DNA of 64,000 nt. Source: Akkermansia muciniphila. GTDB lineage: Bacteria > Verrucomicrobiota > Verrucomicrobiia > Opitutales > Opitutaceae. Made by a program: the position numbers and the translations under genes. This document shows, in pieces, positions 13,683 to 35,834 of the stretch. The stretch covers positions 62,001 through 126,000 of the forward strand of contig CAMCZZ010000003.1 in the NCBI GenBank assembly GCA_945888375.1, read 5' to 3'. The notes beneath the pieces are model-generated. The model did not search any database. It saw only the letters and a list, made by a program, of their open reading frames with translations, and was not told where the DNA came from. The stretch's first letter is position 1. Each line of letters starts with the position of its first letter.

Positions 13683-13688
13683 TTGACG
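13683..13688 (+). promoter_or_regulatory. Possible -35 element of the Val-rich leader transcript
   Basis: TTGACG lies 33-38 bp upstream of the candidate leader peptide GTG at 13721. A convincing -10 hexamer is not visible at the expected distance (CTTGTC is the nearest), so this is a weak call supported mainly by the position of the attenuator behind it. Confidence 0.3.
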
Positions 13689-13720
13689 CCCGCCGGCCAA
13701 CGCGCCTTGTCTTCGCCGCA

Positions 13721-13819
13721 GTGATCTTCGCTTACTCCGCCTCCGTGAAAGCCTCCGCCCACGTCGTATCCGTGGTCGTAGCTATTTCCGTGTCCGAAAC
13801 GGGCACACCGCGAGGCTAA
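13721..13819 (+). CDS. Valine-rich leader peptide (ilv-type attenuator ORF)
   Basis: A 32-codon ORF (GTG at 13721) or 24-codon ORF (GTG at 13745) ends at the TAA at 13817-13819. Its core reads HVVSVVVAISV: six Val and one Ile in eleven codons, followed by SETGTPRG. Such clusters of regulatory codons are the hallmark of leader peptides controlling branched-chain amino-acid (ilv) operons by ribosome-mediated attenuation. The stop codon lies just after a predicted antiterminator arm (13807-13815), and a strong terminator follows at 13840. No ilvB, ilvN, ilvC or leuA gene lies downstream; only a 90-codon Pro-rich ORF follows. No clear Shine-Dalgarno is seen, so the start is uncertain. Confidence 0.6.
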   Translation: MIFAYSASVKASAHVVSVVVAISVSETGTPRG

Positions 13820-13871
13820 CGAAAGCAACCCACTTTCCGCCCCCTCCGGTGACTACCGGAGGGGGTTTTTT
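13807..13871 (+). promoter_or_regulatory. Transcription attenuator with competing antiterminator
   Basis: Three complementary segments are visible. Segment 2, ACCG-C-GAGG (13807-13815), overlaps the end of the leader ORF. Segment 3 is CCCCCTCCGGT (13840-13850). Segment 4 is ACCGGAGGGGG (13855-13865), followed by six T. Segment 3 can pair with segment 2 (eight pairs with one bulged C) or perfectly with segment 4 (11 bp, GACT loop). This gives the standard choice between antiterminator and terminator. A ribosome stalled on the Val codons would leave segment 2 free. Confidence 0.7.
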
Positions 13872-13900
13872 GTTTTAAAACAAAAAACCCGGCCTCCGGG
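13863..13900. terminator. Bidirectional terminator region after the leader
   Basis: A perfect 28-bp palindrome (13863-13890) is made of GGG, a T-tract, an A-tract and CCC. On the minus strand the hairpin CCCGG-AGG-CCGGG (13888-13900) precedes TTTTTTG. The plus-strand attenuator uses the T-tract; the minus-strand hairpin could stop transcription coming from the TPR gene at 14225. Confidence 0.6.
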
Positions 13901-13941
13901 GGAAATCGAAGGGGGTGGCCTCCTCTCCAACGCCACCACCC

Positions 13942-14214
13942 ATGACCGACCAAGACCCGCCCCTCCCGCCGCTCGCCCTCGCGCTCGGCCGCCTCCGCCA
14001 GCCCCGGCCCGCCCCTAGGGCAGCCTGGCCCTTTGCTCCGCGCCCGGCCGGCGATCCGCTCCCCGCGGAAACCCTTCCGCCCGGCGACACCTCGACCGGC
14101 CCGTCCCACGATTTCCTCCGGATTCTGCCGGAGCCCGCCCTGAACGGCGATCTTCCGCCACCCCGCCCAACCCCGGCGACGGCGCTGAACCGCCCTTACT
14201 GGTTCGATTTATAA
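13942..14214 (+). CDS. Hypothetical Pro-rich 90-residue protein
   Basis: An ORF starting at the ATG at 13942 encodes a Pro/Ala/Leu-rich, low-complexity protein ending in LNRPYWFDL. I recognise no domain, signal peptide or membrane segment. It is the only plus-strand ORF behind the Val-rich attenuator, so it would be the formal target of that control. It could equally be a chance ORF in GC-rich DNA: there is no clear ribosome-binding site and the composition is biased. It ends 10 bp from the stop of the convergent TPR gene. Confidence 0.4.
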   Translation: MTDQDPPLPPLALALGRLRQPRPAPRAAWPFAPRPAGDPLPAETLPPGDTSTGPSHDFLRILPEPALNGDLPPPRPTPATALNRPYWFDL

Positions 14215-14224
14215 ACCAACGCGG

Positions 14225-16213
14225 TCACTGCAAATCCACGGGCCGCAAGCCCCCGACGGGCTCCCACGCCGCGAGTTGCTTGAGCGCCTCGGAGGCTGCG
14301 GGATCCCGCCGGATGATCTCCTTCACCAAAAGAGTGGCATTGGCGGCATAGCCCTCCTCGCGCACCGCCCGAGCCAGCGCCAGCAATCGCTCCGACGCAC
14401 CAGCGTCGCGCCCGAGCGTATTACGCGCCAGCAATTGCAGCACCAAAGGATCGTCACCACGAGCCCGAAGCGGCAATTCTAGGGCTTCCAGTCGCGCCGT
14501 CTCGGCCGAGAGCCAGGCCGGCTGTGCTCTTCGCGCAGAAGACAACAAGGCCAGCGCCCCAGCCGTATCACGAATGAGCACCAGCCGCTCAAATGCCGCG
14601 CGGAAACCCGCAAACGTGTCGAGCGCCGGCACCGCCACCGGCTCGGCCGGGAGAGGCGCCGGGATTGCCGCTTTCTCCTCCTTGGCGATGCGCTCGCGTG
14701 CCACCGCGAGACTGCGCGCGGCGGGAAAAGGCCCATCCGCCAGGGTGAGAATCTGCCTGGCGGTTTCCACCCGGCCCGCGTCGATCAGCGCCCCCAGCAA
14801 CATGGCGTAGAGTCGCAGCGTGCCCGGGCGGTCGGCGACGATCGCAACTAGCGCGGCCTGCGCGCCGCCCCCTCCATCCAAACAGGCACCCGCAAGCCGC
14901 GTCATCGTTTCCAAATACGAGTTTTGAGCTTCAGTGAGTCGTTCGCGGTCATTTTGACGGAGCCGCTCAATAAACGTCAGCGCCGCCGGCCAGTCCCGCG
15001 CCCGAATCGTCTGTTGCAAACGCATCCACCCCACCGGCGAGGTGCTCAGGCCGCGCTCGCGCAACTCACGCTCCACCCGCTCCAGCCCCCCGGGGAACTT
15101 CACCTCCGAAAGGACCGCCGCAAGCGTTTGGTAAAGCCCGGGGGTCGCACCATGGCGAAAAATCAACTCGTCTAGATTCGCCCGCGCCTCCCCGGCACGA
15201 CCAGCCAGCTGGTTCTGGGTCAAGGCATAGAGCAACCCGTCGGGACTGGTCGGCGCAAGCGCGCGCAGCCTCCGCAACGCCTCATCCATCGCCGTCGGAT
15301 CGCGCGCTTCCCGCCCGGCGCGCACCACCAGACGCAGCGCCTCGGCCGAGGCCGGCGCCTCCGCCGCCCACTGGGCCGCCAGCGCGAGCGCCTCCTGCGG
15401 CTTATCCGTGGAAAGCAGATGCAGCACCGTAACCTCGCGCCGCAGGGGATCAGCCTCCGGGTAGGCATGGGTCACCAAGGCCAGCGCCTCCGCCGGACGA
15501 CCGGCAGACATAAACGCCCGCACCGCCTGCTCATCAAGCCAACGCGCCTCGGCCGCGCCCCCCCCCTTCTCTATTGCTGCGGCCAGCGCCGCTCGGGCCT
15601 CCCGACAAAAGTCCACCCACTCGTCCGGCCTGTCCCCCTCCTCCAACACGACAAAAGCCGACTCGAGATAGTTTCGCCCCGGGTATCCATAGTTCAACCC
15701 GGCCCGCAGAATCTGCGCCCCCTGGGGACGCAGCCGCAAAGCTATGTAGATGCGCGCCACATCAAGCCGGGTGAGGACGTCCGCCGGATTCCGATCCAAG
15801 CCCAGACGCAAGAGGCCGAAACCCTCGCTAAATTGCCCCGCCCGCAGCTGATCCCGCCCCAGCTCGGCAAACCCTTCACCCCGCAGCCGCCGCAACTCCG
15901 CCCAGCGGTGCGGAGCCACCAAATCAAAATAGGTGACTCGATTATGCGGATTGGCCGCCACCAAGCGCTGCAAGAGGATCGCCGCGCCCATCAAGTAGGC
16001 CAAAAATAAAACGGCCGCAGCCCAAACCAAAAGCCCGCGCGCACTGAGATTGAGCGTGTGGTGCAGATAATTCTTCCAATAGGCAGGCACCCCGCCAGCG
16101 GGCAACGGCCGCGCCGGATCAGGCGTCTGCTGCCAATGATACAGACCCAAACGCCAACACCCGTCGGGCAAGGGGGGCGTAGCCCACATCAAACGTATTC
16201 GTTTCAGCGCCAT
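14225..16213 (-). CDS. Membrane-anchored TPR-repeat protein
   Basis: A 662-residue protein read from the ATG at 16213 (MALKRIRLMWATPP); a frame 15 codons longer exists. One transmembrane helix lies at about residues 58-82 (LLVWAAAVLFLAYLMGAAIL). It is followed by an all-helical region with repeated 34-residue-like units (FSEGFGLLRLGLDRNPADVL, PQEALALAAQWAAEAPASAE, DPTAMDEALRRLRALAPTSP), typical of tetratricopeptide repeats on the outer face of the inner membrane. Partner unknown. The three tRNA genes lie upstream on the same strand but are separated from it by a terminator. The gene is convergent with the 90-residue ORF. Confidence 0.8.
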   Translation of the reverse strand: MALKRIRLMWATPPLPDGCWRLGLYHWQQTPDPARPLPAGGVPAYWKNYLHHTLNLSARGLLVWAAAVLFLAYLMGAAILLQRLVAANPHNRVTYFDLVAPHRWAELRRLRGEGFAELGRDQLRAGQFSEGFGLLRLGLDRNPADVLTRLDVARIYIALRLRPQGAQILRAGLNYGYPGRNYLESAFVVLEEGDRPDEWVDFCREARAALAAAIEKGGGAAEARWLDEQAVRAFMSAGRPAEALALVTHAYPEADPLRREVTVLHLLSTDKPQEALALAAQWAAEAPASAEALRLVVRAGREARDPTAMDEALRRLRALAPTSPDGLLYALTQNQLAGRAGEARANLDELIFRHGATPGLYQTLAAVLSEVKFPGGLERVERELRERGLSTSPVGWMRLQQTIRARDWPAALTFIERLRQNDRERLTEAQNSYLETMTRLAGACLDGGGGAQAALVAIVADRPGTLRLYAMLLGALIDAGRVETARQILTLADGPFPAARSLAVARERIAKEEKAAIPAPLPAEPVAVPALDTFAGFRAAFERLVLIRDTAGALALLSSARRAQPAWLSAETARLEALELPLRARGDDPLVLQLLARNTLGRDAGASERLLALARAVREEGYAANATLLVKEIIRRDPAASEALKQLAAWEPVGGLRPVDLQ

Positions 16214-16286
16214 GAAGAGCCTGAAACTTGCGGAGGTTTGCCCGTCGGGCAAGAACACGAATGCGCAGACTGGCGGGGCCAGACGT

Positions 16287-16322: not shown

Positions 16323-16396
16323 TGGCTGCCCGACTAGGACTCGAACCTAGACAAAGCGAGTCAGAGTCGCTTGTGCTACCATTACACCATCGAGCA
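16323..16396 (-). tRNA. tRNA-Gln (anticodon CTG)
   Basis: The minus strand folds as a complete cloverleaf: acceptor TGCTCGA / TCGGGCA, D-arm GTGTAATGGTAGCAC, anticodon loop CTCTGAC with CTG at 34-36, T-arm with GGTTCGAGTCC, discriminator G and encoded CCA. It reads CAG Gln codons. It is the last of three tandem tRNAs (Lys-Thr-Gln in transcription order). Confidence 0.95.
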
Positions 16397-16436
16397 GTAA
16401 AACTGGGATAACCTCGGCGCAAAAAATGACGGCGGC

Positions 16437-16511
16437 TGGAGCCGGCGACTGGATTTGAACCCGCAACCGCCTGTTTACAAAACAGGTGCTCTACCGTTGA
16501 GCTACACCGGC
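16437..16511 (-). tRNA. tRNA-Thr (anticodon TGT)
   Basis: The minus strand has acceptor GCCGGTG / CGCCGGC, D-arm AGCTCAACGGTAGAGC, anticodon stem CCTGT / ACAGG with loop TTTGTAA (TGT at 34-36), T-loop GGTTCAAATCC, discriminator T and encoded CCA. It reads ACA and probably other Thr codons. Confidence 0.95.
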
Positions 16512-16578
16512 GACTAGTGCCGTTGATGCGACCAAGGACTAAAAAGAACACCGCCGGAAAGACTGACCCGGCGTAAAG

Positions 16579-16653
<75 letters not shown>

Positions 16654-35312: not shown

Positions 35313-35370
35313 TCGCGCGCGGTCGGGCGCACGGGGCGGATTTTCCGCAACCCCTTCTGAAAAAAAGTCT

Positions 35371-35834
35371 GATCCCGAGGCTGTAAGCCGGGTTATGTAG
35401 CCGACGCGTCACCGCGCCGGTTGACGGCCATTTCTCTCAACGCCGGCCTCGCGGCCGGCCTGCCCACCCCTCGCTTGCGCGGGGGCGGATGCGGCATACC
35501 CGCGACCATTGGACGAGCCGCCCGGTCGCCTATTTTGCCTTGCACCGGACGGGGTTTACCGTGCCGCCGACCTCACGATCGACGCGGTGGGCTCTTACCC
35601 CACCTTTTCACCCTTACCCTTGGGTTTCCCCTCGGGCGGTATATTCTCTGTGGCACTTTCCGTCGACGCGCCTTGACGCGCGCCGCCTGGACTTGGCCCT
35701 CGCGGACCTCGGCCAGCATCCTGCCCTGCGGTGTCCGGACTTTCCTCTCCGACGAGGTTCTCTGCCGGACGCGGGTGCTTAACCCGCGTCTTGGGATGCG
35801 AAAGAACGTCGGAGCGGCCATCCACCCCGGGATC
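35371..35834 (-). ncRNA. rnpB: RNase P RNA (bacterial type A)
   Basis: On the minus strand the invariant core GAGGAAAGTCCGGACACC is present at about 35731-35750, and the conserved 3' segment ACCCGGCTTACA at 35382-35393. Helix P1 closes the molecule: 5' GATCCCGGGG (35825-35834) pairs with CCTCGGGATC (35371-35380). Length is about 464 nt. A T-tract (35361-35367) directly follows as the probable terminator. ORFs in both directions here are shadows. RNase P removes 5' leaders of tRNA precursors. Confidence 0.93.

Follow-up and report, generated by a model that had tools for sequence, protein, structure and literature searches.

The stretch of DNA analysed here (64,000 nt, hereafter the window, with coordinates counted from its first letter) encodes a valine-rich leader peptide followed by an intrinsic terminator. 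With a probability of roughly 0.7, we conclude that these form a valyl-tRNA-sensing, ribosome-mediated transcription attenuator whose target is a small protein encoded downstream. The candidate regulated gene is a 90-aa ORF (13942–14214, plus strand) with counterparts in 24 genera. Attenuators of this type are well known; one dedicated to such a microprotein would be new.

All elements of the leader lie on the plus strand. A probable -35 element, TTGACG (13683–13688), is followed at 18-nt spacing by a weak -10, TTGTCT (13707–13712), assigned by eye. The leader ORF (13721–13819) runs from GTG to TAA over 32 codons, and its product as read from the window sequence is MIFAYSASVKASAHVVSVVVAISVSETGTPRG. 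It includes the valine-rich run HVVSVVVAISV, in an ORF that also contains Ser and Ile codons, and the putative regulatory codons for VVSVVV (GTC GTA TCC GTG GTC GTA) occupy 13763–13780. AGCCTC (13750–13755), a possible arm 1, complements GAGGCT (13812–13817) by eye. A small hairpin, GTGTCC...GGGCAC (13790–13806), was likewise seen by eye within the leader and across the genus, with compensated changes in the alignment such as GTATCC/GGATAC in L016 and L017. The putative antiterminator arm 2, ACCGCGAGG (13807–13815), overlaps the last codons of the leader ORF and is able to pair with CCTCCGGT (13843–13850) with one C bulged. The terminator scan placed a hairpin formed by arms 3 and 4 at 13839–13866, with 12 pairs (11 Watson–Crick and a closing G.T) and a loop of 4, followed by the T-tract TTTTTGTTTT (13867–13876). 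Thus the valine-rich ORF, the overlapping antiterminator arm and the perfect terminator with its T-tract, from which an earlier note on this DNA had proposed an attenuator, are all present in the sequence and the scan.

The layout of leader ORF, antiterminator and terminator controls ilv and leu operons via ribosome stalling at Val, Leu or Ile codons, and ivbL and ilvL of Escherichia coli are ribosome-mediated attenuator leaders of ilv genes. In the reading that we favour, a ribosome supplied with ample valine would pass the Val codons to the stop codon (13817–13819) and cover arm 2, whereupon the terminator would form and the short leader RNA would be the sole product. When valyl-tRNA is scarce, the ribosome would stall at the Val codons, arm 2 could pair with the 5' arm of the terminator, RNA polymerase would read on, and the 90-aa protein would be made. 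That protein, which is probably disordered, would act via its short HDFL motif and perhaps also its C-terminus, and would most likely tune branched-chain amino-acid metabolism in valine shortage. We infer the valine response, the expression and every step of the small protein's action, and the putative specificity of the leader for valine is read from its codons.

The 181-nt RNA spanning 13700–13880 folds better than all 200 of its shuffles (z -3.19), and much of this signal is explained by the terminator alone. The stretch 13837–13918, comprising the terminator and the sequence after it, matches its own reverse complement at 79%, so a larger hairpin that pairs the U-tract is possible in the read-through RNA; terminator-like sites are found here on the minus strand too. 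No Rfam family reached its gathering score in the leader stretch, and the best leader-type match was PyrG_leader, at 28.8 bits of the 65 needed. Assignment of the leader to any Rfam family was rejected: the microRNA and PyrG-leader matches are below threshold, and sub-threshold matches in the leader region look like palindrome artefacts. A 6S RNA was also rejected, the genome's 6S RNA match being separate, on contig C11. Downstream, the 90-aa ORF is followed by a convergent ORF (14225–16258), past which the minus strand carries three consecutive tRNA genes (16326–16653). The window further contains an RNase P RNA of bacterial class A (35368–35797, minus strand).

No branched-chain biosynthesis gene lies behind the window's leader, and because this defining gene is absent the device is not an ilv operon attenuator. 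The only IlvB match in the window's genome at E ≤ 0.001 is on another contig (C14:84096–85811), in agreement with the earlier note, which had seen no such gene behind the leader. Two kinds of gene for the acetolactate synthase (AHAS) large subunit score high in the family, ilvB1 and ilvB2, and the window's genome has ilvB1 as a 591-aa ORF on C14. At E ≤ 1e-150, 48 of 252 family genomes had an ilvB2 match, and the 15 genomes of the window's genus (the window's own included), the Opitutaceae group of isolate IMCC26134, had none. The suggestion that the ilv operon had moved away was rejected, since at this threshold ilvB2 is missing from all 15 genus genomes and the remaining ilvB1 is a different gene.

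We then profiled what stands behind homologous leaders. A valine-rich leader and terminator were found by eye just upstream of ilvB2 in all 14 loci read in the family and order. A covariance model (R1) built on the terminator and the end of the leader matched 179 of the 252 family genomes at E ≤ 0.1. We classified 134 loci, namely the best listed R1 matches (E up to ~4e-6) and earlier ones, leaving out two listed matches in G170 and G085. The leader precedes ilvB2 in 30 of these loci (9 of the genomes are among the 14 above), a small ORF in 91 (described below), an MFS transporter-like ORF in 4 and an ilvN-like gene alone in 1 (G018); contig ends truncate 4 loci, and another 4 (L255–L258) proved not to be leaders. 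Twelve further loci, from 15 regions fetched, comprised seven with ilvB2 behind the leader, one with a small ORF and four that are not leaders. The covariance search in relatives that had been proposed for this leader found its end and terminator conserved, mostly with ilvB2 or a small ORF behind them. Since leaders recurrently precede ilvB2, the ancestral target was probably ilvB2, and by sequence likeness the window's leader is homologous to those preceding ilvB2 elsewhere in the order.

Two of the minor classes deserve description. Leader and terminator stand directly before an ORF that we take to be MFS transporter-like in L206 (G231), L240 (G234), L254 (G238) and L243 (G019), that is, in three g66 genomes and G019, which would make a third kind of target for the attenuator family. 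A similar-looking long minus-strand ORF was noticed by eye downstream in L079 (G018:C1:2403000–2413000) and L075 (G023:C11:11500–21500). The ilvN-like gene behind the leader in G018, with a downstream ORF as in L075, suggests that ilvB2 was deleted in place there.

The 90-aa ORF was found in 14 of the 15 genus genomes, complete in 13 and truncated at a contig end in one. Of the 134 classified loci, 87, each from a different genome and together representing 21 genera, have behind the leader an ATG-started ORF of 60–111 aa matching the pattern [HNYF]D[FLM]L, and another 4 have ORFs of 58–72 aa with the variants TDFL (twice), HEFL and HGLL, read by eye outside the pattern. Leader, terminator and an ORF of 58–111 aa thus occur together in at least 105 of the 252 family genomes, in 24 genera (the 87 with the pattern, the 4 variants, L287 and 13 of the genus). 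An initial idea that ilvB2 loss was limited to the window's genus and a few others was replaced, given the small ORF in many genera. Markov-shuffled loci showed the ORF pattern in a mean of 0.2% of cases, the reverse strands of the 87 loci showed it once, and 216 control stretches also showed it once. Both ilvB2 and the small ORF are present in only 4 of 252 genomes, against ~20 expected (Fisher p 3e-8, with shared ancestry ignored). These distributions favour one option of the earlier note, that the attenuator now controls the 90-codon ORF at 13942, and make its term "orphan" misleading, as the attenuator comes with a partner gene, in a unit found widely across the family.

The pairing of leader and small ORF persists within the genus even where the surroundings differ. 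The window and L084 have upstream neighbours in common, one of them presumably SecA-like, and different neighbours are found in L082 (G010) and L083 (G005), where a long ORF has what we take to be a ClpB-like start. A Shine–Dalgarno-like stretch was seen by eye ~26 nt upstream of the small ORF's ATG, farther than usual. A plasmid search with the window's small protein returned no matches.

Across genera, the small ORFs share little beyond the motif HDFLVxxxxPDL, which in the window is HDFLRILPEPAL (14107–14142). Over 100 sequences, its first positions have H in 90, D in 100, F in 74, L in 100 and V in 59 (D and L were required by the search pattern), and positions 10–12 have P in 86, D or E in 65 and L in 69. 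The pN/pS of the motif is 0.21 over 5 codons and 0.31 over 12 codons, versus 0.95 for the codons just before it. Its first five codons have 60 different DNA spellings in the 100 sequences, which indicates constraint on the protein. Codons 2–19 gave a pN/pS of 0.94, a value inflated because it was taken without gaps, and the last five codons gave 0.55; the C-terminal YWFDL (14197–14211) is invariant in 13 genus sequences (alignment A1). Whole small ORFs have median dN/dS values of 0.34–0.62 in 12 genera. Outside the motif, the small ORF evolves close to neutral.

AlphaFold predicted no fold for the window's small protein (mean pLDDT 60.7, pTM 0.13), which is probably mostly disordered with a short working motif. 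The 13 small proteins of the genus belong to no Pfam or NCBIfam family, with one Pfam match (TetR_C_7) at E 0.17. Their profile (A1) had only weak matches outside the genus (6 genomes, E 0.003–0.01), the motif being nearly all that the proteins have in common. A hydrophobic-acidic tail (FNxDFP, FNxDRP, xIDLP or FDIDFP) was observed in L128–L130, L136–L138, L143, L146–L149, L180, L183, L199 and L205, and is a possible second short motif beside HDFL.

We compared the small proteins with IlvB, the AHAS large subunit (TIGR00118). Two parts of IlvB, its N-terminus and the KHNFLV..EL segment, have look-alikes at corresponding, co-linear places in the small proteins, although the latter have 58–111 aa against ~565 and are not members of TIGR00118. 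Small-protein N-termini fit IlvB2 windows 3, 2, 0 and 1 at ranks 1, 3, 4 and 5 of 528 (22 genera), and the motif fits IlvB2's KHNFLVRSAAELLE at 12.2, with the next window at 4.95. For L222 (MNTTTALQRNLLLTQHDIRLPAGFPGGQLP) against the IlvB2 start, none of 60,000 shuffles was as good, a result uncorrected for the ~100 sequences. Some C-termini (IDLP, FDFP, YWFDL) recall IDLPKDV of IlvB by eye. A search of the 87 small proteins with an IlvB2 profile was not significant (best HMMER E 0.07), hhalign of the small proteins against IlvB gave P 0.071, no N-terminal IlvB2 signal was seen for the window's own genus (mean z 0.37), and for this fit mean z was negative in another six genera. Overall, these comparisons point in both directions, and descent of the small protein from IlvB is a possibility with at most moderate support.

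A more specific history can be put forward only tentatively. An acetolactate synthase gene under a valine attenuator might have been whittled, in an ancestor of many Opitutaceae, to a disordered microprotein of 58–111 aa that keeps scraps of the first domain (the N-terminus, the HNFLV strand and perhaps the IDLP strand) and was kept as a regulator induced by valine starvation, e.g., by binding the surviving AHAS subunits. The history of the leader and the weak sequence likeness are the basis for proposing that the small protein may act on acetolactate synthase.

The near-neutral evolution of most of the small ORF would also be expected if ilvB2 had simply been deleted, leaving an attenuator that is working or dying and a functionless pseudogene scrap behind it. 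The rarity of ilvB2 and the small ORF in one genome, the resemblance of the N-terminus to IlvB2 in several genera and the leader of G018, where loss of ilvB2 in place seems to have happened, fit such a relic as well. We nevertheless consider it unlikely, given that a small ORF is open behind the leader in 24 genera, that 87 of 91 complete small ORFs match one pattern (the others being the four variants) and that the motif is strongly constrained (pN/pS 0.21–0.31) despite its many DNA spellings. Moreover, D is kept in 89 of the 91 complete small ORFs, where the search pattern itself required D and the four ORFs outside it were read by eye, whereas the IlvB2 proteins listed have N; separate recent decays would not share this change.

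The leader is conserved beyond the window. In a DNA search of 57 genomes, the window's genome and 13 of the other 14 genus members carried the leader block, the remaining one (G009) having only a 35-nt match at a contig end, and weaker matches were found in other genera. Matches dropped from this search were L026 (no terminator found), L022 (a 25-nt terminator match in a different family), L027 (35 nt at the end of a contig), L003, and also L002 and L028–L032, which are self-complementary. This conservation exceeds chance. The 14-row genus alignment has TTGACG identical in all rows and keeps the Val codons and the terminator; HVVSVVV is kept in 13 of the 14 aligned leader peptides, with one V to I in the other. 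A pattern scan of named genomes found the leader in 13 records, including the complete genome of Verrucomicrobia bacterium IMCC26134 (CP011265.1). Valine-rich leaders similar to the window's occur in family loci among the matches listed, and in 77 of 87 family loci a TTGAC precedes the start of the small ORF by 150–290 nt (mean of shuffles, 8.0).

Selection on the leader ORF had been suggested as a check. Its low synonymous change in the genus (pS 0.23, versus 0.54 for the small ORF) fits constraint at the RNA level, and its pN/pS of 0.69 indicates weak selection at the amino-acid level, which is a reservation with regard to this check. The greater conservation of the leader at synonymous sites could mean that the product is the leader itself, working in trans either as terminated RNA or as peptide, with the small ORF mattering less. 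A trans role has been published for such a peptide, peTrpL of Sinorhizobium meliloti (PMC7298713). We find this account improbable for the window, as it leaves unexplained both the one-motif small ORF behind the leader in ~100 genomes and the likeness to the leaders that precede ilvB2. The system favoured here would share with peTrpL an attenuator-linked small product with a function beyond control of the biosynthetic operon; unlike peTrpL, which itself acts in trans, the candidate product is a separate downstream small gene.

Evidence for the alternative structures came from comparing the arms of 20 loci, some of them divergent and from the order level. Duplexes of arm 2 with its cognate arm 3 averaged -17.5 kcal/mol versus -14.0 when arms were swapped, and none of 20,000 permutations matched the cognate pairing (relatedness of the loci was ignored). 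In the 11-locus subset with differing arms, the values were -16.7 and -12.6. Against shuffled upstream sequence, the window's own duplex is unexceptional (z -0.56), and the mean z over the 20 loci is only -1.34. The terminator arm columns are nearly invariant in 100 aligned loci, and with so little variation of arms 2 and 3 within the family, pair counting there would say little. Arm 2/arm 3 pairing is thus supported as a predicted structure. Together with the conservation of the leader in the genus, the better pairing of cognate than swapped arms supports the proposed identity as an attenuator. A constitutive terminator with incidental Val codons and no regulation by stalling, to which the leader's pN/pS of only 0.69 and the window's unexceptional duplex would lend themselves, is very improbable in view of the Val runs that recur in the leaders of 14 of 14 ilvB2 loci read and the better fit of arms 2 and 3 over swapped arms in 20 loci.

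Leader and terminator pass the sequence-based tests for a classic valine attenuator: the leader ORF is short and rich in codons of one amino acid, an intrinsic terminator precedes the putative regulated gene, and a mutually exclusive antiterminator is supported by covariation, judged from cognate against swapped arms in 20 loci with relatedness ignored, in arms that vary little within the family. As in ilv and leu attenuators, the antiterminator arm overlaps the end of a short valine-rich ORF, a terminator follows, and homologues stand before ilvB2. Unlike them, the window and the small-ORF loci of 24 genera have a small orphan ORF, and no enzyme, behind the leader. E. coli IlvX, a 16-aa protein encoded between the ilvL attenuator and ilvG, is alike, by description only, in that its short coding region comes immediately behind an ilv attenuator; it is followed by ilvG in an operon, whereas in the window no same-strand enzyme gene comes next.

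Leader-peptide attenuators of ilvB have been described in Corynebacterium and elsewhere (PMC11857589, PMC10272879 and PMC1262725). MicroProteins of plants and animals, small relatives of larger proteins that act on their complexes (PMC6003976 and PMC4807768), offer a possible model for a shrunken IlvB; they are described as usually consisting of one domain, whereas the protein here is predicted to be disordered and its descent from IlvB has no more than moderate support. In the accessible parts of the open-licence literature searched, on attenuators of Opitutaceae, Verrucomicrobia and Opitutus and on acetolactate synthase microproteins, we found no description of the unit of leader and small ORF, and within the same limits none of a branched-chain attenuator of such kind in Verrucomicrobiota.

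If this reading is true, the Opitutaceae would have a widespread family of small proteins that carry the signal for their induction, valine shortage, in their own leader. Bacteria would then also offer an example of an enzyme gene that shrank to a regulatory peptide and kept its attenuator. The reading gives a testable prediction on the control of branched-chain amino acids in Verrucomicrobiota.
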